The notes beneath the pieces were generated by a model. It searched no databases, had not been told where the DNA came from, and saw only the letters and a program-made list of their open reading frames with translations. A program made the translations under genes and the position numbers. A DNA stretch of 64,000 nt from Acidimicrobiia bacterium (GTDB taxonomy: Bacteria; Actinomycetota; Acidimicrobiia; Acidimicrobiales; Aldehydirespiratoraceae): assembly GCA_022820805.1 (NCBI GenBank), contig JAJEEV010000037.1, positions 1 to 64,000 of the forward strand. The letters run 5' to 3'. Shown here piece by piece: positions 3,031-21,091 of this stretch (positions are counted from its first letter, which is position 1; each line of letters begins with the position of its first letter).

Positions 3031-4749
3031 CTAGAGCTCCGGCAGCCGGGGGCCGGCGATGCGCACGTCGTCGCGCCGGCGGGTGACGCCGGTGCTGTCC
3101 AGCCGGGCCAGCAGGGCCAGGGCGTACTTGCGGGTGGTGCCCCACGCGTCGCGCGCCTCGGCCACCGTCACCCCTTCGGGCTGATCGGCCAGCAGCCGGG
3201 CCACCACCACCGCGGCCTCCTCGACCGCGGACGCCGCGAAGTGGATCCCGCCGCTCTCGACGAGGCGGCCCTGCCTCACCAGCAGGCGCAGCTCGTCGCC
3301 GCCGACCCCGCTCGCCGCGGGGGGCGCGAACGGCTCGGCCTCGGCTGCGGCCACGAACGGATGGTCCGCCAGCGGATCGGCGCCCCCCGCGACGAGGGCC
3401 CGGCCCTCGCCGGTGGCGATGCCGTCGATGGTGCCGATCACGGCCCGCTCGAAGTCGTCGAGCCCGGCCAGGTCGAGCCCGAGCGGCCCGGCGCCGTCCA
3501 CCGCGTCCGCGAGCCGCCGCCTGGTCTGCTCCAGGTGCTCGGGGTCGACCGCCCACCGGTCCAGATCGGGCGGGCGGGCGGTGCCGGTGAGCCGCTGCAG
3601 CGCGGCCGCGTCTATGCGGCCCCGCTCGGCGATGATCCGGTCCACCGACCGGTCGGGCCGGGCCCGTGAGGCGGGCAGCACCGGGTCGACGTCGAGCACC
3701 TCGCCACCGCCGACCGTCTCGGAGCGTCCCGACTCGCGCAGGATGAAGCGATCCCCCATGCACAGCGGCAGCGGCACCGGCAGGTGCAGCCGCACCAGTC
3801 CCGTCCGGCCCGGCTCGATGGCCGACGGCCCGAGCACCCGCAGCTTCACGGGGTGCTCGCCCGACCCGATGTAGGCCACGTAGGCCCCCCGGCGGGTGAC
3901 GGGGTGGTCGATGGAGGCCAGCACCGACAGCTCCGAGTCGATGGTCGTGGCGGCGTGCCACTGCCCGGCCCTCACCACCGCGTCGCCCCGGGCCACGTCC
4001 CGGTGACCGGCGCCGACGAGGTTGACCGCCACCCGGTTGCCGGGGCCCAGCTCGTCGCACTGCTGGTGCAGGCTCTGAAGGGCCCGCACCCGCACGCTGT
4101 GGCCGGCGGGCAGCAACGCGAGGGTGTCGTCGGTGCTGAGGCGGCCCCCGGTGAGGGTGCCGGTCACCACCGTGCCCGAGCCCTTGATGGCGAAGGCCCG
4201 GTCCACCCACAGCCGGGGCCGGTCGCGGTCGGCGGCGGTCGGGGTGACGGCCAGCAGATCGTCGAGCGTGGCGACCAGCGTGTCCATTCCGGTGCCGTCC
4301 ACCGCGTCGGTGGCCACGATCGGCGCCTCGGCCAGGAACGTGCCGGCGACGTGCTCGGCCACATCGAGACGGGCCAGTTCCACCAGGTCCTCGTCCGCGT
4401 CGCCGGCCTTGGTCAGGGCGACCAGCCCGTGGCGCAGGCCCAGGAGCTGGAGGATGCGCAGATGCTCCTCGGACTGAGGCTTCCATCCCTCGGTCACGTC
4501 CACCACGAACACGCAGGCGTCCACCCCGCTCACCCCGGCCAGCATGTTCTTGAGGAACCGGACATGGCCGGGCACGTCGATGAACGCGATCTGGCGTCCC
4601 GACTCCAGCGGCATCGACGCGAAGCCCAGGTCGATGGTCAGGCCCCGTTCCTTCTCCTCGTCCCACCGGTCGGGGTCGGTGCCGGTGAGGGCCCGCACCA
4701 GGGTGCTCTTGCCGTGGTCGACATGGCCGGCCGTGGCGACTACATGCAT
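3031..4749 (-). CDS. selB: Selenocysteine-specific elongation factor SelB
   Basis: The 572-residue GTPase carries G1 GHVDHGKST (8-16), G2 RGLTIDLGF (35-43) and G3 DVPGH (58-62). EF-Tu-like beta-barrel domains follow, then a long C-terminal part ending in winged helices. This is the SelB layout: it brings Sec-tRNA(Sec) to the ribosome and binds the SECIS hairpin with its C-terminal domains. The G4 motif is degenerate (LTKAGDAD). The gene starts 15 bases after selA and should share its transcript. The window has at least one likely client, the UGA-containing gene at 15811-16644. Confidence 0.95.
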   Translation of the reverse strand: MHVVATAGHVDHGKSTLVRALTGTDPDRWDEEKERGLTIDLGFASMPLESGRQIAFIDVPGHVRFLKNMLAGVSGVDACVFVVDVTEGWKPQSEEHLRILQLLGLRHGLVALTKAGDADEDLVELARLDVAEHVAGTFLAEAPIVATDAVDGTGMDTLVATLDDLLAVTPTAADRDRPRLWVDRAFAIKGSGTVVTGTLTGGRLSTDDTLALLPAGHSVRVRALQSLHQQCDELGPGNRVAVNLVGAGHRDVARGDAVVRAGQWHAATTIDSELSVLASIDHPVTRRGAYVAYIGSGEHPVKLRVLGPSAIEPGRTGLVRLHLPVPLPLCMGDRFILRESGRSETVGGGEVLDVDPVLPASRARPDRSVDRIIAERGRIDAAALQRLTGTARPPDLDRWAVDPEHLEQTRRRLADAVDGAGPLGLDLAGLDDFERAVIGTIDGIATGEGRALVAGGADPLADHPFVAAAEAEPFAPPAASGVGGDELRLLVRQGRLVESGGIHFAASAVEEAAVVVARLLADQPEGVTVAEARDAWGTTRKYALALLARLDSTGVTRRRDDVRIAGPRLPEL

Positions 4750-4764
4750 TCCGGCGGACGGTCT

Positions 4765-6057
4765 CTAGCGAGTCAGGCCGGCGACTTCGCGCAGCGCGGT
4801 CGCCACTTCGGCGTCGTCGTCGGGGTGGACTGTGCGCAGGTCTGCGACGGTGGCCCCTTCGAGCACCCGGGCGATGATCGGCCGGGGCCGCGACCGCAAT
4901 GCGGCGGCGTGGTCGCCGGGCACGGACACGCCGACCGACTCGATCTCCACGCCGGGCAGCGTGCCGCCGCCGGGCGTGGCTGCGGTGGCGACCTCGGCGA
5001 GGCCCTCGTACCGGCCCAGCCGGCCCCTCAGCTCCGCCGGGGTGAGGGCGGCCATCCGCCAGAACTCGATGGCGTTGCCGTCGCCTCGCAGGTAGGCCAG
5101 CGCAGTGTCCTGCAGCGCGGCCAGCACCAGCGACCCCGGCCGCAGCGCCCGGGCAAGCCGGTGGCGGCGGCAGGCGTCGACCAGCTCGGCCCGGCCCGCG
5201 ATGATGCCGGCCTGGGGTCCGCCCAGGAGCTTGTCGCCGGAGAAGGTCACCAGCGCGGCGCCGGCCTCGAGGGTCTGGCGGGCGGCCGGCTCGGAGTCCA
5301 GCCACGGCGGGGGGCCGCCCTCCAGCCAGCCGCAGCGGCTGTCGAGCAGGCCCGATCCGATGTCGGCCACCAGCGGCGGGCCCAGGTCGGCCAGCTCAGC
5401 CGTGCGGGGCGCCTCGGTGAAGCCCACCACCCGGAAGTTCGACTGGTGGACCTGCATCACCACCGCGACGTCGTTGGCGGCGTCGGCCACCGCGGCGGCG
5501 TAGTCGGCCCGGCGGGTGCGGTTGGTGGTGCCGACCTCCACCAGCCGGGCGCCCGACCATGCCATCACGTCGGGAACCCGGAAGCCGCCGCCGATCTCCA
5601 CCAGCTCGCCCCTCGACACCACCGCGTCGCGGCCTTCGGCCAGGGCGGCCAGCACCAGCATCACCGCGGCCGCGCAGTTGTTGACGGCCATGGCCGCCTC
5701 GGCTCCGCAGGCCCGGGCCAGCAGGCCGGGCGCGCCCCGCTGGCGGTCGCCCCGCTCTCCGGTGTCGATGTCGAGCTCCAGGTTGGAGTACTGGGCGCTC
5801 TGGTTGCGAGCCAGCGGCGCCCGGCCCAGGTTGGTGTGCAGCAGCACTCCCGTGGCGTTGATCACCGGCGTGAGCATCCTGCGGCCCAGGGCGCGGGCCC
5901 GCGCCTCCGCGGAATCGGGATCCCCGGCCGCGATGGCGGCCCGGGCCGCGTCCACCAGCAATCGATGGGGCAGGCCGGTGCCGGCCAGCGAGCGGGCCAG
6001 CCGGTCTACGGAGGGCGGTCGATCCTGGGGCGCCACGTCGGCGACAAGGCTACGCAT
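4765..6057 (-). CDS. selA: L-seryl-tRNA(Sec) selenium transferase SelA
   Basis: The 430-residue PLP enzyme converts seryl-tRNA(Sec) to selenocysteyl-tRNA(Sec) using selenophosphate. The PLP-lysine motif SGDKLLGGPQAG is present near residues 263-274, and the N-terminal region with NATGVLLHTNLGRAPL near residues 66-81 is typical of SelA. It is the first gene of a selA-selB operon. Neither selD nor a tRNA(Sec) gene could be found in this window, so they must lie elsewhere. Confidence 0.95.
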   Translation of the reverse strand: MRSLVADVAPQDRPPSVDRLARSLAGTGLPHRLLVDAARAAIAAGDPDSAEARARALGRRMLTPVINATGVLLHTNLGRAPLARNQSAQYSNLELDIDTGERGDRQRGAPGLLARACGAEAAMAVNNCAAAVMLVLAALAEGRDAVVSRGELVEIGGGFRVPDVMAWSGARLVEVGTTNRTRRADYAAAVADAANDVAVVMQVHQSNFRVVGFTEAPRTAELADLGPPLVADIGSGLLDSRCGWLEGGPPPWLDSEPAARQTLEAGAALVTFSGDKLLGGPQAGIIAGRAELVDACRRHRLARALRPGSLVLAALQDTALAYLRGDGNAIEFWRMAALTPAELRGRLGRYEGLAEVATAATPGGGTLPGVEIESVGVSVPGDHAAALRSRPRPIIARVLEGATVADLRTVHPDDDAEVATALREVAGLTR

Positions 6058-14530: not shown

Positions 14531-15763
14531 GTGACCACGACCGTGCCGACGGCCGAGGCCGTCATGGAGTTGATGCGGGGCGTGGTCGATCCCGAGCTGG
14601 GCAGCAACCTGGTGGAGCTGGGCATGGCCCGGGGCGCGCAGGTGTCCGGCGACGGCGAGGTGCGGATCGAGATCGCCCTCACCACGTCCGGTTGCCCCCT
14701 GCGGGCCCAGATCCAGCGCGACGTGAAGGCCCGGCTGGAGTCGCTGCCCGGAGTCACCAAGGTGCGAATCGTCTGGGCCGAATTGACCGCGGAGGAGAAG
14801 ACCGCGGCCATGGCCAAGGCCCGCTTCAACGTGTCGCAGCGGGCGCCGGACACGGCCATTCCGCCGACCACCAAAGTGCTGATGGTGGCCAGCGGGAAGG
14901 GCGGCGTGGGCAAGTCGACCGTGACGACCAACCTGGCCGCTGCTCTCGCCGAGGAAGGCTTCAAGGTCGGGGTGATGGACGCCGACATCTGGGGGTACTC
15001 GGTGCCCCGGATGCTGGGCGTGGACGGGGACTTGCGCTCCCTCGAAGGCAAGATCGTGCCCATCAGCCGGACCGTCGGCGAGGGCCGCCTCGACGTGGTG
15101 TCGATGGGCTTTTTGGTGGATCGGGAGGACTCGGCGCTGATGTGGCGGGGCCTGATGCTCAACCGGGCGGTGCAGCACTTCTGCGAGGACGTCCGCTGGA
15201 ACGACGACCTCGACTACCTGCTGATCGACATGCCGCCGGGAACCGGCGACGTGCAGATGGGCCTGGCCAAGATGCTGCCCAGAGCCGAGATGATCATCGT
15301 CACCACCCCGACGGTGGCCGCCCAGAAGGTGGCCGCCCGGGTGGCCGACATGGGCCGCAAGAACTACCTGAGAGTCGTGGGCGTGGTCGAGAACATGAGC
15401 TACCTGGTGACCCCCGACGGCGAGCACCAGGCCGTGTTCGGCGCGGGTGGGGGCGAGGCGCTGGCCTCCGAGATCGGAGCGCCGTTGCTGGGCTGCATCC
15501 CGCTCGACCCTGCCGTGGCTGAAGGCTCCGACCTCGGCGAGCCGGCCGTGCTCGGCTCCGGCGTCGCGGCGAAGGAACTGAAGTCGGTGGCCCTGGCCCT
15601 GTCGGAGGAGCACGTCCCACCGGTGGAGATGGCGGGCTGCAGCGCCCGGATGCTCGACGCGGCCGTGGCCGCCCTCGACGCCCTTGACGCCCTTGACGCC
15701 CTTGACGCCCTCGACGCCCTCGACACCGAGGACGACGAGGACAACGAGGACGACGAGGCCTGA
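14531..15763 (+). CDS. mrp: Mrp/NBP35-type Fe-S cluster carrier ATPase
   Basis: The 410-residue protein begins with a MIP18/SufT-like domain (6-85) and continues with a deviant Walker A P-loop SGKGGVGKST (121-130), MDADIWGYSVPRMLG and DMPPGTGDVQ of the Mrp ATPase family. It binds and transfers Fe-S clusters in an ATP-dependent way. The C-terminus has a run of ALD tripeptides encoded by a 9-bp tandem repeat, then an acidic tail of Asp/Glu. The tail is unusual and may vary between strains. Confidence 0.93.
   Translation: MTTTVPTAEAVMELMRGVVDPELGSNLVELGMARGAQVSGDGEVRIEIALTTSGCPLRAQIQRDVKARLESLPGVTKVRIVWAELTAEEKTAAMAKARFNVSQRAPDTAIPPTTKVLMVASGKGGVGKSTVTTNLAAALAEEGFKVGVMDADIWGYSVPRMLGVDGDLRSLEGKIVPISRTVGEGRLDVVSMGFLVDREDSALMWRGLMLNRAVQHFCEDVRWNDDLDYLLIDMPPGTGDVQMGLAKMLPRAEMIIVTTPTVAAQKVAARVADMGRKNYLRVVGVVENMSYLVTPDGEHQAVFGAGGGEALASEIGAPLLGCIPLDPAVAEGSDLGEPAVLGSGVAAKELKSVALALSEEHVPPVEMAGCSARMLDAAVAALDALDALDALDALDALDTEDDEDNEDDEA
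15671..15724 (+). repeat. 9-bp tandem repeat inside mrp
   Basis: Six units of GCCCT(C/T)GAC encode (ALD)6 near the C-terminus of Mrp. Copy-number change would keep the frame. Confidence 0.85.
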
Positions 15764-15780: not shown

Positions 15781-15825
15781 ACTTCTGTCAGTCATCCACC
15801 TCACAGGTGGCTAGGTGACAGAAGT
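15781..15825. terminator. Bidirectional hairpin between convergent mrp and UGSC genes
   Basis: ACTTCTGTCA (15781-15790) pairs with TGACAGAAGT (15816-15825), enclosing a second hairpin CCACCT-CAC-AGGTGG. It overlaps the last codons and stop of the UGSC gene and lies 17 bases after mrp, so it can end both transcripts. There is no clear T-tract. Confidence 0.65.
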
Positions 15826-16644
15826 CCGGGGGTCGTCCAGCTCAACGGTCAGACCGGGGCCCAGCTCGGCGTCGACGCGGCTCTGCAGGATGGGGACCAG
15901 CATCGACGAGGGCAGGACGCACTCGGCGCAGGCCTCGTCGGGTATGTGGAGCCGGAAGACGATCGTGGTGCCCGTCCGTTCAGCCGTCAGGTCGGCGCGG
16001 TCGGCCCGGAGGGCCTCGGCAAGGGACTCCACGACGTCCTCCAGCCCGGCGAGCCCGCCATCGCTGCCCGCTGCGGTGACCGGCTCGCCGGCGGCCTGAG
16101 GCGGCGCGGCAGCCACGCCGCTGAGCAGCAGGCTCTCGACTGCGGGGGTGACCGCGTCGGCGGCCGCTCTCACCTGCTCGTCAGTGAGGCTGGCCACCGG
16201 GTGGGGGATGGTGGCGAACGGGTAGTCGGAGAATCCTTGGAGTTCGGCCATGACCCGGCCGGTGGTCCGGAACGGCTCGGTCAGGATGGCGGCCGCGGGC
16301 AGGCCCAGCTCCTCGAAGCGGACGGCGTCGAGCACACTGCCCGACGAGCAGCTGCCTCAATCGCCGATGGCGGCGATGACCGCGGTGGCGTCGCTGGCCA
16401 GCATCTCGACATCGGTGGGATCGGCGGGGAAGCTGGAGTCGGGCTTGGTGACCAGGATCGTGCCGCCGAGGCGGTGGGCGGCCGCCAGGTTCTCGGCGAC
16501 CCGCTGGAGGATCTCGCGCCCGCGGGCCTTGCCGTTGTTGACCAGCCCGAGCACCGCGCCGTCGAGCGAGGCGGGCCGGGCCGCCGGGGTTCGGCCGCCT
16601 GCGCCGGCGGGACCGAGGGTCGGGTCGATGAGTGTGACCGTCAT
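15811..16644 (-). CDS. UGSC-family selenoprotein (in-frame UGA = selenocysteine 96)
   Basis: A 277-residue product is obtained when the TGA at 16357-16359 is read as selenocysteine. The sequence around it reads GD-U-GSCSSGSVLDAV, giving the U-G-S-C motif that names this family, with C99 three residues after Sec96. Residues on both sides form one protein: LDGAVLGLVNNGKARG upstream, and FEELGLPAAAILTEPF with QGFSDYPFATIPHP downstream. Without recoding the protein would stop at 95 residues. The ATG at 16644 follows AGGAG and overlaps the previous stop (ATGA). The motif suggests thiol/selenol redox chemistry, but the reaction is unknown. selA and selB lie 10 kb away. Confidence 0.88.
16317..16356 (-). 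promoter_or_regulatory. Candidate bacterial SECIS region after the UGA
   Basis: Bacterial SECIS hairpins lie just 3' of the UGA. Here GCTGC (16348-16352) can pair with GCAGT (16336-16340) around a 7-base loop UCGUCGG on the coding strand. The loop begins about 10 bases after the UGA, closer than in the E. coli element, so the exact structure is uncertain. Confidence 0.35.
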
Positions 16645-17723
16645 GGCGTGACTATCTCCTGAGTGATGAGCGGGACGCTGCGGTCCCGGCTCCATGTGGG
16701 AAAGAAGGCCGAGTGCCCGCCGGCATCGCCGCCGCCGACCATGAGGGCGATGTCGGAGGGTCCGGTCCCCCGCCGCACCGCGATGTCCTCATCACCGGGA
16801 CGGACCGCCGGATCCGACGCCATCCACCACACCGGGTCGTACCCGTCGACGAGGCCGGCCGGTTCGACCTTGCCGCCCCGCTTGACGTCCGCGAACGAGC
16901 GGGCCGAGTGCTCGTACAGGTACTCCTGCACCTGGGCCCGGGTCCACCCCGACGCCGCGATCTTGCGGGCATGCTCGGGCGCGAACACGATCAGCGACCG
17001 CCCCGAACTCAGCGACCCGAACGCGGCCATCGAGTCGGCGAATGTTCCCAGCAGTTCGGCCACGTCCGAGGATGCGTGGTTCAACACGTTGTGGCCGGAC
17101 TCGGCAGCCATGATCGTGACCGTGCTCTGTGACGGCTGGTAGCCCCGGGAGACGTGGAACGGCTCCCACGGGCATGACGCCTCGTCCTCGCCGAAGCACA
17201 GCGCGAACTTGCCCGCCCATCCCTGGGTGCTCTTGTCCAGCGCACCCGGTATGGCCATCAGGCAGTTGCGCAGCACCAGCCGGACGGTGCGGCCGATGGT
17301 GGCGTTGGCCCGGAAGCCCGGGCCGAACAGGTTCTCCTTGCAGTGGATGCCGATCTGGTCGCGGACGGGGCCGTTGACCGCCACGAGGATGGCGGCCCCG
17401 CCGGTGCTGGCGGCCACCGCATGCAGCCCGAAGTCCGGCGCGCCCATCGCCTGCAGGGCCGCGCCCACGACCGGGAAGTACTCGGGGCGGCAGCCGGCCA
17501 TGACTGCGTTGACCGCGGCCTTGCCGGCGGTGACGGTGAGGCCCCGCCACGGGTCGTCGAGCAGCACGTCGTCCGCTGCCCACACGCCGCCGGCCACCAT
17601 CGCCTCGACCAGCGGCCCGGTGGGCGGCACGACGGGCAGCCCGTCGGTCCAGCCGGCCGTGTAGCAGGCCTCGATGGCCTCCCACGGATCGTCCACCCGC
17701 CGGTCGCCGTGAGCAGGAATCAC
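16641..17723 (-). CDS. Conserved protein of unknown function, operon partner of the UGSC selenoprotein
   Basis: The 360-residue soluble protein contains an N-terminal TDGLPVVPPT motif (about residues 25-34) and glycine-rich segments such as ASTGGAAILVAVNGPVRD and NATIGRTVRLVLRNC. Several cysteines are scattered through it. No family could be named. Its stop overlaps the ATG of the UGSC gene by four bases, which indicates translational coupling and a shared pathway. The GTG start is preceded by GAGGGG. It could be the enzyme that works with the selenoprotein. Confidence 0.7.
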   Translation of the reverse strand: MIPAHGDRRVDDPWEAIEACYTAGWTDGLPVVPPTGPLVEAMVAGGVWAADDVLLDDPWRGLTVTAGKAAVNAVMAGCRPEYFPVVGAALQAMGAPDFGLHAVAASTGGAAILVAVNGPVRDQIGIHCKENLFGPGFRANATIGRTVRLVLRNCLMAIPGALDKSTQGWAGKFALCFGEDEASCPWEPFHVSRGYQPSQSTVTIMAAESGHNVLNHASSDVAELLGTFADSMAAFGSLSSGRSLIVFAPEHARKIAASGWTRAQVQEYLYEHSARSFADVKRGGKVEPAGLVDGYDPVWWMASDPAVRPGDEDIAVRRGTGPSDIALMVGGGDAGGHSAFFPTWSRDRSVPLITQEIVTP

Positions 17724-17762: not shown

Positions 17763-19382
17763 CTACGGCCGGGGTGCGCTCGGCGGGGCTTCGAAGGTCG
17801 CCTCGACCTCGGCCGACAGGAGCCGGGCCACCTCGGCATGGCCCGCGTTGTTCAGGTGGAAGCTCCGGTACCAGCCGCTCAGCGGGTTGAGGCCCACGTG
17901 GGTGATACCGTGGATGAAGTCGGAGCCCCGCCCGCACACCTCGTGACCGCCCTCGCGGAACGGCGTGTAGGTGTCCACGTAGTGGACCCGCTCGGCGCCG
18001 AGCGCCTCGTTGGCCCGCTGCACCGCCCCGGCCAGCTGCCGGTTGAGGTGCTCGGCGAGCCGGCCCAGCCGGTCGACGGTGCCGGGCTTGTACAGCGCCC
18101 GGCACGGGTCGAACAGCCTCCACTCGCTCGAGGGCGCCAGCAGGCTGGGGTAGCCGATCACGTACAGGCGGCCCCGCTCGGTGAGCCGCTCGGTGACGAT
18201 CTCGCGGTAGAAGTCGGACATCGACCCGTACTGCTGGCCGTCGATGCGCAGCGCGCAGCCGTAGTCGGGCCTCGACCCGCTGCGGGTGCTGCCCGGACAG
18301 GTCCTCGCGGGATCGATGAGATGGTCGATCCGTGCCTGCAGGGACGCCTCCGACGGGCACCCGAGGACGAGTTCGCTGATGCGGGTGAACGGGACACAGG
18401 CCAGGACCACGTCCTCGAAGCCGACATCGTTGCCGCCCAGCGACAGCGTGATCACGTCCAGTCGTCGGGGCCCGTCGAGAGACTCGACGTGCTCCTGGAA
18501 CATCGACATCCGCCCCGATGTGGGCGAGCGGCGGTTGAACATGTCCTCCACGAGCGCGCCCTCGCAGGCGGTGTGGGTGTGGCTGATCGTCCAACCCTGT
18601 TGCCGGAGCAGCTCGGCTGCCGCGGGGCCGGCCGCCCGGGGACTCCGCCGGCAGGATCCCTCGGCGTGCGGGTCGGTTCCCACGCCCGACGAGTAGGAGT
18701 CGCCCGCCGACAGCCACGTGACGGTGGCATTGAACCGCAGGGCCCGGAGCAGCAGCGACGCCATCTGGGCCCTGGTCACGGCCACGTCCGGGCAGTACCG
18801 GGCCGGGTCACGGGCGCATCCCAGCGTGATGCCGGCCTCGGCCAGCGCGTCGACGGCGGACTCGTGGGTGTTGCCGCCGGTGTCGGTGAACCCCGCTGAC
18901 GGGCCCGGGCTGAGCCGGAACGCCCTCTGCAGGAAGCTGGCCGTCTGGGCCCGGGAGACGGGCCGGTGCGGGCAGAAGCGGGCCGGACCGGTCCTGCACC
19001 CCCTGGTGATGCCCAGATCGGCGAGGTGCTCGACATGGGGTGACCACCACCGCCACGACTCGACGTCCGCGAAGCGGGAGCTTCCCGAGCGCGGGGGGTC
19101 GCGGCCGTCGAGGGTCCGCACCAGCCACACCGCCATCGCCCAGCGGGGCAGCGGTTCCTGCGGGCAGAGCCGGCTGGGAGTGCAGCCGGTGCCCTGCAGA
19201 ATCCCGGCCGCATCGAGCGCCTCCACGGCGCTCTGGTGGACGCCGGCGTCCGCGGAGTCCGAGAAGTCGGCCCAGGCCGCAGCCGGTGCCGCCCCGAACG
19301 CCCCCGATGCGGCTGCCAGCCCGACGATCAACACGGTCAGTATCCGCCGCCTTGGGCGACCGTTGCGTCTCTGCCGAGTCAC
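17763..19382 (-). CDS. Secreted SGNH/GDSL hydrolase with N-terminal SLH-like repeats
   Basis: The 539-residue protein has a basic start and signal peptide (about 12-37), three S-layer-homology-like repeats (about 38-220, each with a GITxGC and RAQxAxxLxRA pattern), then an SGNH hydrolase domain. Block I is GDSYSSG, block III is GGND, and the late HLNNAGH supplies the catalytic His. Esterase or lipase activity at the cell surface is likely. SLH domains usually bind pyruvylated wall polymers. It lies 39 bases upstream of the UGSC partner gene on the same strand. Confidence 0.85.
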   Translation of the reverse strand: MTRQRRNGRPRRRILTVLIVGLAAASGAFGAAPAAAWADFSDSADAGVHQSAVEALDAAGILQGTGCTPSRLCPQEPLPRWAMAVWLVRTLDGRDPPRSGSSRFADVESWRWWSPHVEHLADLGITRGCRTGPARFCPHRPVSRAQTASFLQRAFRLSPGPSAGFTDTGGNTHESAVDALAEAGITLGCARDPARYCPDVAVTRAQMASLLLRALRFNATVTWLSAGDSYSSGVGTDPHAEGSCRRSPRAAGPAAAELLRQQGWTISHTHTACEGALVEDMFNRRSPTSGRMSMFQEHVESLDGPRRLDVITLSLGGNDVGFEDVVLACVPFTRISELVLGCPSEASLQARIDHLIDPARTCPGSTRSGSRPDYGCALRIDGQQYGSMSDFYREIVTERLTERGRLYVIGYPSLLAPSSEWRLFDPCRALYKPGTVDRLGRLAEHLNRQLAGAVQRANEALGAERVHYVDTYTPFREGGHEVCGRGSDFIHGITHVGLNPLSGWYRSFHLNNAGHAEVARLLSAEVEATFEAPPSAPRP

Positions 19383-19495
19383 TACCCCATCACCGGCCTT
19401 CCAGGAGGCACGATATTGTCGAAGACGTCGGCATTGTCGAAGACGTCGGCGGCGTTCTCACGGGCGTCCGACACACCGTCGTAGCCTGCTGTTCC
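19383..19495. promoter_or_regulatory. Divergent intergenic region with an 18-bp tandem repeat
   Basis: ATTGTCGAAGACGTCGGC occurs twice in direct tandem (19415-19432 and 19433-19450), each with the palindrome GACGTC. The region separates the SGNH gene from the 2Fe-2S fusion gene, so the repeat may be a paired operator. TAGCCT (19482-19487) lies 8 bases before the ATG at 19496 and may be its -10 box. Confidence 0.5.
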
Positions 19496-21091
19496 ATGGC
19501 TTCTGCGCCGGCCGAGAGCTTCGAGATCGTCGTCGACGGTGCTCCGGTGACCGTGGACGACGAACGGCTGACGCTGCTGGACGTGCTGCGCGAGCAGCTC
19601 GGGGTGCGGTCGGTCAAGGACGGGTGCAGCCCGCAGGGCCAGTGTGGCTGCTGCACGGTGCTGGTGGACGGCCAGCCCCGGGTGGCCTGCGTCACCCCGG
19701 CCCGCCGGGTGGCGGGCCGCACCATCACCACCCTCGAAGGGCTCGACGCCGGGGTCCGTGACGGATGGACCCGGGCGTTCGCAGCCACCGGCGCCAGCCA
19801 GTGCGGGTTCTGCACTCCGGGCATCATCTGCCGCTTCGCCGGTCTCAACGCCAAGGGCGCCGACCACGGCGACCGGGGCGCGGCGGCCCGGGCCCTGGCC
19901 GCCCACCTCTGCCGGTGCACCGGCTGGCAGCCCATCCTCGACGCCTGGGAGGCGTACCCCCGCTTGCTGGGCCCAGCCGGTGAGGCCGGGGTTGAGGACG
20001 CGGGCCGGCGGGCCGAGGCCGACCTCCGGGCCGCCATCGAGGGGGGCTCGCCCCAGTCGACGGGACCCCATGTGGCCCTCGGAGACGGTGGGTTCGCCGA
20101 CGACACCGCCCCGGACGGCGCCCTGGTGGCGGTGCGGGCCGGCGACGACTGCGAGTCTGCGGACGAGCACGGCTGGGTGGTGGCCGACACCGCGGTCGAG
20201 GCGCGGCGGCTCGCGGCCCGGGTGCCTGGACGCCGGACCACGGCGAGCTGGGAGCCGCCCCTGCAGGTGCCACCGGGGGACTGGGCCGTGACCCTGCGGA
20301 CGAGCTGGACCGAGCCCGGCTACCTGGAGACCGACGCCGCCTGGTGCGAACCCGGTGGCCGGCCGGCCTCCCCGCTGGGCAACGGCGGTGCCTTCGGCGG
20401 CAAGCTCCACTCTCCGGTGGCCGATGCCGCCCGCCGTCTGGCCGACCGCCACGGTCGGCCGGTGAGGGTCCTGTGGTCCCGGCCCGACACGGTCGAGCTG
20501 GGCCCCAAGCGACCCCCGCTGGCCGCGGGCATGCGCTCGGACGGTCGCGGCGAGATGGTCGTGGCTCGCACACCGGGCATCGCCGAAGCGGTCCGGGCCT
20601 ACGGCCCCGGGCTGGCCGTGACCGAGGTGGACGTGCCCGGACCGTCGACGTCGTCGCAGGTGAGGGGGGCGGGCTGGGCTGAGGCCGCGGTGCTGCTGGC
20701 CGCAGTACGGGGGGAGGCCGGCTGGATCGCCGGACCGGGCGGGGGATCGGCCGCTGCGACCGTCGAGGGCGACGGCTCGATCAGCGTGCAGGTGCGAGCC
20801 GGCCGGGCTCTCGACGAGACCGTGCTGCGCTCCTACTGCACCGGCGCGGCCCACATGGCCTACTCGTGGGTGACCAGCGAGTCGCTCGGCGTCGACGGTG
20901 AAGGCACCGTCCACGACCTGACCGTGCGGTCCTTCGGCATCGTCGGGGCGGCCGGCATGCCACCGGTGGCCGTCGAAGTCGCCGACGACGGCTCCGAGCC
21001 CGTCAACGGCAGCGACGCAGTGTTCGCCGCGGTGGCCGCCGCGGTGTGGATCAGCCGCGGGTGCCCGCCGGTCTGGCCCACCGACCGCTGA
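19496..21091 (+). CDS. 2Fe-2S (xanthine dehydrogenase small-subunit type) protein fused to a short molybdopterin-binding-like domain
   Basis: Residues 1-165 match the two-cluster iron-sulfur subunit of the xanthine dehydrogenase/CO dehydrogenase family: a plant-type 2Fe-2S site GCSPQGQCGCC (43-53) and a second site with QCGFCTPGI and CRCTGWQPI. Residues about 200-531 resemble parts of the molybdopterin subunit (GNGGAFGGKLHSP, VRVLWSRPDTVELGPKR), but at about 330 residues this is less than half the usual length. The fusion may be a degenerate or reduced oxidoreductase. No separate large or FAD subunit is adjacent. The ATG at 19496 starts at the conserved domain. Confidence 0.75.
   Translation: MASAPAESFEIVVDGAPVTVDDERLTLLDVLREQLGVRSVKDGCSPQGQCGCCTVLVDGQPRVACVTPARRVAGRTITTLEGLDAGVRDGWTRAFAATGASQCGFCTPGIICRFAGLNAKGADHGDRGAAARALAAHLCRCTGWQPILDAWEAYPRLLGPAGEAGVEDAGRRAEADLRAAIEGGSPQSTGPHVALGDGGFADDTAPDGALVAVRAGDDCESADEHGWVVADTAVEARRLAARVPGRRTTASWEPPLQVPPGDWAVTLRTSWTEPGYLETDAAWCEPGGRPASPLGNGGAFGGKLHSPVADAARRLADRHGRPVRVLWSRPDTVELGPKRPPLAAGMRSDGRGEMVVARTPGIAEAVRAYGPGLAVTEVDVPGPSTSSQVRGAGWAEAAVLLAAVRGEAGWIAGPGGGSAAATVEGDGSISVQVRAGRALDETVLRSYCTGAAHMAYSWVTSESLGVDGEGTVHDLTVRSFGIVGAAGMPPVAVEVADDGSEPVNGSDAVFAAVAAAVWISRGCPPVWPTDR

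Follow-up and report, generated by a model that had tools for sequence, protein, structure and literature searches.

A UGSC-family selenoprotein gene of an Acidimicrobiia bacterium, its conserved partner gene and a possible role as a reductase subunit

A stretch of 64,000 nucleotides from an Acidimicrobiia bacterium (assembly GCA_022820805.1, contig JAJEEV010000037.1), referred to here as the window, carries two segments on the minus strand that share one reading frame and are joined by a TGA codon (16357..16359). Does this codon end a gene or is it read as selenocysteine (Sec), and what may be the function of the protein? The original prediction took both segments for a single selenoprotein gene with the residues GD-U-GSC around the UGA, and sequence, frame and coordinates all proved to be as it described them. 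The gene (15811..16644, minus strand) starts with ATG at 16644, ends with TAG at 15811-15813 and encodes 277 amino acids when the TGA, its single in-frame break, is read through as Sec. The sequence AGGAG (16656..16660, minus strand), which is likely the ribosome-binding site, sits 11 bases upstream of the start codon. A plain list of open reading frames splits the gene into two pieces, and this is the one observation in favor of the TGA as a true stop, i.e., of a truncated protein, a pseudogene or a sequencing error. UGA is still a stop elsewhere, as the gene upstream ends with TGA at 16641-16643 in an ATGA overlap with the start of the UGSC gene.

The joined product belongs to the UGSC family, as had been proposed. 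With U read as C, the whole protein scored 167.8 bits against PF24696 (cut-off 25) and 127.9 bits against NF041046 (cut-off 125). Each half also matched PF24696 when searched alone, the N-terminal one with 54.5 bits and the C-terminal one with 91.5 bits, and together they cover profile positions 2-92 and 94-170 with the junction at the TGA. The UGSC domain, as judged by profile match and predicted fold, comprises residues 5-173 (16126..16632, minus strand). Over these residues, the window protein resembles in sequence the members of PF24696 and NF041046 and the GOS family as presented in the UGSC passages of PMC2398784. The likeness extends to the [U/C]-G-S-C motif, present here as UGSC, to the exchange of Sec for Cys and to a stem-loop behind the UGA, whereas an extra CxxC module at the C-terminus sets the window protein apart.

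Reading of the same codon in related genes revealed that homologues continue through the UGA instead of all ending there. In the genome that holds the window and 60 relatives, 61 genomes altogether, UGSC genes were present in 45, with 103 matches. The fact that 99 of these hold one TGA argues against a true stop; among the four matches without TGA, two fail to span the Sec site. A closer set of 63 loci (66 were submitted, and L066, L077 and L078 were without UGSC match) has TGA at the Sec column in 54 cases and Cys codons in nine, with some genomes counted twice because two collections were used. After removal of identical domain sequences, 46 Sec and nine Cys forms remained, i.e., 55 distinct homologous domains. 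The Cys homologues that the original prediction had suggested looking for thus exist, and they, too, speak against termination at this site. The motif reads UGSC in 54, CGSC in eight and CSTC in one of the 63 homologues, and the position of Cys99 is occupied by cysteine in every one of them. Cys forms occur in Arthrobacter, Embleya, Roseovarius, Variovorax, Neorhizobium and on four haloarchaeal plasmids, while the TGA forms include that of Mesobacillus (Bacillota) and plasmid-borne ones in Acidovorax and Paracoccus. On the Paracoccus plasmid, selB and the partner gene introduced below are 3.3 kb apart. A tree calculated with the Sec site masked requires six Sec/Cys changes. Well-supported branches force two of these; the details of the tree are unsure because of long branches. 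One relative (G048) has ten UGSC matches, among them a Cys-type fusion of UGSC with the partner (L102).

The claim that ordinary annotation would break such genes holds for both annotated plasmid records with UGA that were read. In the record for Acidovorax sp. T1, a coding sequence for a 'hypothetical protein' stops at the UGA, and in that for Paracoccus ferrooxidans two small hypothetical coding sequences lie at the UGSC gene, the first one stopping at the UGA. Such breakage is not universal, however, given that NF041046 knows the family. The family name appears under the match in five of 14 plasmid records, and all five are Cys forms.

A SECIS-like hairpin (16327..16345, minus strand) follows the UGA, with 11 bases between TGA and stem, a 7-bp stem and the loop AGUGU (16334-16338). 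Counting the T of TGA as 1, bases 15-21 pair with bases 27-33. All seven pairs form in 30 of 36 distinct Sec sequences and six pairs form in six, compared with 1.7 sequences expected to have all seven upon synonymous-codon resampling with the codon usage of 10 window genes, which was applied to all sequences including that of Mesobacillus. Note that part of the stem reflects coding constraint, because Cys homologues also form pairs (seven in 2/9, six in 3/9), so that the stem alone is less telling. The loop is different in this respect. All 36 distinct Sec sequences have AGT as its serine codon (expected 0.3), and none of the nine Cys homologues does. AGT is rare, accounting for 2 of 234 serine codons in the 10 window genes. 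For 15 sequences picked from the 36, the covariation score was 0.321 versus 0.110 in shuffles; none of 500 shuffles scored as high and versions of the hairpin slid along the alignment reached at most 0.155. Three pairs were changed on both sides, a number matched by 49 of 500 shuffles, and the swaps seen (C-G/G-C and U-A/A-U) are not independent events because the sequences are related. The folding energy of the 50 bases from the UGA was no better than that of shuffles (z -0.39); covariation and synonymous-codon resampling were used because the energy test is powerless in GC-rich DNA. A covariance model of nine other sequences (R1) matched 16312-16359 with 55.7 bits, partly via coding similarity, and also scored six Cys homologues with 13.8 to 43.2 bits. 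Because R1 holds coding information, its match cannot count as separate evidence for the hairpin. Rfam at gathering thresholds yielded no SECIS family in the window. Bacterial SECIS elements are defined, in a passage of PMC1088965, as stem-loops after an in-frame UGA with a G in a small apical loop, and the UGSC gene has both the UGA and a stem-loop of this kind.

Selenocysteine also requires its decoding apparatus, and selA and selB had been predicted about 10 kb from the UGSC gene on the same strand. Both assignments were borne out by profile matches above cut-off: selB (3031..4749, minus strand), for the Sec-specific elongation factor, scored 296.5 bits against TIGR00475 (cut-off 242.25), and selA (4765..6057, minus strand), for the seryl-tRNA(Sec) selenium transferase, scored 377.8 bits against TIGR00474 (cut-off 267.9). 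Absence of selD or tRNA-Sec, named at the outset as an observation that would speak against Sec, was not encountered, since both are present in the genome (3.4 Mb, 94.8% complete). The decoding set of selA, selB, selD and tRNA-Sec is therefore complete. The tRNA-Sec scored 68.3 bits and has the anticodon TCA; a second candidate above cut-off turned out to be a tRNA-Ser. The selD match (G000:C44:53233-54147; L012, L106) itself holds one in-frame TGA, and the selenophosphate synthetase is thus probably a selenoprotein as well. Two further UGSC genes reside in this genome, on contigs C17 and C9, with one TGA apiece. The hairpin model additionally gave a weak match in the same genome (G000:C44:114447-114529, L131; 24.2 bits, E 0.006), perhaps another selenoprotein site. 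Family matches on both sides of the UGA, Sec/Cys exchange at the column in question, the covarying hairpin, the forced loop codon, the two paralogues with UGA and the decoding set all point in the same direction. We thus state with near certainty that 15811-16644 is a selenoprotein gene whose UGA encodes Sec96. With 99 of 103 matches holding one TGA, nine homologues with Cys at the column and a covarying hairpin with its forced AGT codon, there is practically no room left for a true stop.

What, then, does the protein do? The gene that overlaps the UGSC start (16641..17723, minus strand; 360 amino acids) offers a lead. Its product, termed partner here, matched no family in NCBIfam and gave only a sub-threshold match in Pfam. 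In 61 of the 63 UGSC loci, the flanking sequence retrieved encodes it on the UGSC strand, upstream in 54 and downstream in seven; for the two loci without it (L027 and L028), the flanks span only about 1.5 kb each. Both further UGSC genes of the genome have a partner paralogue directly before them (38% identity), and fusions with UGSC as the N-terminal part exist in G028 and G026 (Sec) as well as in G048 (Cys). Identity of the partner amounts to 76-92% in 12 aligned actinobacterial orthologues and to 44% in Mesobacillus. An alignment of 59 rows has 11 invariant positions, including the cysteine of NAVMAGC (Cys78 in the window copy). Judged from this arrangement of genes, UGSC is coupled to, and nearly always located beside, the partner gene. 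The plasmid loci of Haladaptatus (L077) and Vibrio europaeus (L078) gave a partner match and no UGSC match in the stretch; the partner-type protein of the latter has about 560 amino acids and is encoded beside genes for aconitase X and a DUF126 protein. Partner relatives were not found in viral contigs, a fold search with the partner model (pLDDT 71.6) gave no match under E 0.001, and the UGSC and partner alignments, when used to search PDB sequences, had no match up to E 1.

The predicted structure of the UGSC protein (mean pLDDT 83.7) alternates strands and helices and places Sec just before helix 97-112. A Foldseek search returned one match under E 0.001 (NatL2, TM 0.30), which was not trusted. 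Profile comparison was more informative. In hhalign, UGSC was matched with GrdB at 86%, with PrdB-type sequences at 89% and with a joint profile at 96% probability, with Sec column on Sec column; the joint value was 92% when the motif was masked, and reversed controls gave 0.1-0.2%. Single GrdB sequences scored 39-40. The best of 185 gene-like decoy reading frames (23.7) was beaten by 11 of 18 single sequences (4/4 GrdB, 7/14 PrdB-type), but the best of 394 cruder decoys, six-frame open stretches (27.8), by only eight of 18. The GrdB family PF07355 did not match the UGSC protein at E up to 1, and its model ends just before Sec. Matches to PF07355 were present in 45 of 100 relatives searched, many of them short and PrdB-type (L085-L099, also G000:C44:93239-93646, L107). 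Beyond the end of the model, four GrdB sequences continue with LTAT-U-GTGTRCG and, further on, LERAGIPT, and 14 PrdB-type sequences mostly with LVPV-U-PVCH. As most genes read carry U-P-x-C right behind its end, the Sec domain is missing from the PF07355 model. When the PF07355 part of one GrdB was searched against PDB sequences, no relative was detected. On these profile similarities, the Sec domain of UGSC is probably a distant homologue of GrdB/PrdB and not a member of that group.

A different view would make UGSC a general thiol-disulfide oxidoreductase or antioxidant of the thioredoxin-like type, with the partner as a stable client or regulator. It draws on the U-x-x-C motif, which is shared with thioredoxin-like selenoproteins and usual in redox selenoproteins, but the predicted secondary structure of UGSC alternates strand and helix. 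Thioredoxin has a different order of strands and helices. The UGSC profile matched two thioredoxin-type single sequences at no more than 1.0-1.4%, so that fold prediction and these two comparisons both set the domain apart from the thioredoxin fold, and a separate thioredoxin domain sits on the partner in one paralogue clade. We therefore consider this view rather unlikely, even though a Trx-like fold is the published guess for UGSC in the relevant passage of PMC2398784.

The thioredoxin domain in question is located at the N-terminus of the partner in one paralogue clade, which includes the C9 copy of the genome, and carries C-x-T-C and VPTL. Among 17 loci surveyed, 14 had readable N-termini; the clade accounts for 11, nine of them readable (not L034 and L044), and all nine have the domain (CPTC in eight, CETC in one). 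Its profile matches thioredoxins in the PDB (E 1.8e-7), while Pfam at E 0.001 made no call. Gene order provides further links: trxB-trxA-partner-UGSC in Arthrobacter, partner-UGSC-trxB in Roseovarius and, in Variovorax, a trxB gene that precedes the partner by about 2 kb. Such genes are near the UGSC-partner pair in only three of 13 plasmid loci; in the other ten there is none within 7-9 kb, the Embleya record being without annotation. Neither trxB nor trxA was identified beside the window copy.

Taken together, these findings give about an even chance that the UGSC protein provides the Sec subunit of a reductase that has two subunits, is recycled by thioredoxin and resembles glycine or D-proline reductase to some degree in the way it works. 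The UGSC protein and the partner would form one enzyme, the task of the partner being the binding and presentation of a small substrate. Sec96 would attack the substrate and take up the leaving group, Cys99 would resolve the selenenyl intermediate by formation of an Se-S bond, and thioredoxin would reduce this bond, either directly or through the thioredoxin domain on the partner. We count in support the partner in 61 of 63 loci, the fusions, the profile link to GrdB/PrdB and the thioredoxin links, and we count against it the PF07355 miss, the result with the cruder decoys, the lack of a convincing fold match, the sparse trxB/trxA genes and the fact that the thioredoxin-tied subunit of glycine reductase is GrdA, not GrdB (as described in a passage of PMC13188914). 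The pairing of genes, as expected of an enzyme with several subunits, and, in some UGSC lineages, thioredoxin links are shared with GrdB/PrdB (PF07355, TIGR04483), as is the Sec domain at profile level with Sec on Sec; in contrast, PF07355 does not match UGSC directly, the partner falls in no family of NCBIfam or, above cut-off, of Pfam, and the UGSC-partner pair also occurs in haloarchaea. Many of the lineages with the pair are usually aerobic. Its range comprises Actinomycetota, Bacillota and Pseudomonadota, with the Cys form in haloarchaea. Slightly more tentative is our proposal that UGSC and partner form a branch of the glycine/D-proline reductase superfamily that had gone unrecognised, namely a catabolic selenoenzyme of two subunits that is recycled by thioredoxin and carries a CxxC extension in the lineage of the window.

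Alternatively, reduction may not be the main task of the enzyme, which may instead transfer or handle a group (methyl, sulfur or metal) for which Sec would act as ligand or acceptor. A gene assigned to the homocysteine S-methyltransferase family (PF02574) by Pfam analysis of the L055 copy immediately precedes the partner, in the same orientation, in seven of 21 loci (the window and 20 others; for L056 the upstream sequence is too short to tell), and phosphosulfolactate synthase genes occur in two plasmid UGSC loci. Yet the seven loci are from close relatives, the window copy has no such S-methyltransferase gene beside it, and the thioredoxin links argue for redox turnover, which makes group transfer improbable. 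In L064, a homocysteine S-methyltransferase-type gene is more than 5 kb away. Returning to the reductase, the relatives' neighbour genes, i.e., TRAP and tripartite-tricarboxylate transporter parts, CoA-transferases and the S-methyltransferase, suggest that its substrate is a small compound of carboxylic or methylated/sulfur type.

The window gene adds a member to a known family, as UGSC proteins were described in the literature in 2008 at the latest. They are among the commonest selenoproteins of aquatic metagenomes, with 255 in GOS according to a passage of PMC2398784 and a share of 8.2% among the selenoprotein genes of a later GOS survey (passage of PMC9402790), and a 2026 review (PMC13188914) still counts UGSC, in its relevant passage, among proteins with functions that 'remain largely uncharacterized'. 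What is added here is the coupled partner gene, the GrdB/PrdB profile link and the thioredoxin fusion or adjacency in some lineages. The passages on UGSC in PMC2398784, PMC13188914, PMC9312934, PMC5330540, PMC5029168, PMC7539508, PMC7435645 and PMC9402790 mention neither the partner gene nor a link to GrdB/PrdB, and both are also absent from the GrdB/PrdB passages of PMC13188914. With a fixed partner and the GrdB/PrdB and thioredoxin links, an orphan family becomes an enzyme that can be tested, and it is the partner and the GrdB/PrdB link that deserve specialist attention.

The C-terminal module of the window protein (about residues 200-272; 15829..16047, minus strand) has a conserved CAEC and a predicted helix-strand-strand-helix-strand arrangement. 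It is conserved in 12 other actinobacterial rows of the alignment and in the Cys form of Arthrobacter, and is absent from Mesobacillus. A comparison with the C-terminal domain of NifU (PF01106) gave a weak hhalign probability of 10% with CxxC aligned (reversed control 1.4%). The predicted order of helices and strands resembles that of NifU, and the module is possibly NifU-like. In the reductase, it could serve as an extra redox or Fe-S relay. A UGSC/Unknown_1 fusion is reported in a passage of PMC2398784 and may be the same arrangement.

The window copy is located between a GDSL lipase-like gene and genes for Fe-S assembly (Mrp type and Fe-S_biosyn type), which also occur in nine and six of the 21 loci, respectively. 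The Mrp gene is encoded on the other strand, so this arrangement does not imply an operon with it. In translation, the end of this gene (about 15680-15763) shows an ALD repeat and an acidic tail. On inspection by eye, a reading frame at 19040-21091 in the window apparently encodes a 2Fe-2S small subunit of a molybdenum hydroxylase followed, in one frame, by what seems to be part of the large subunit.
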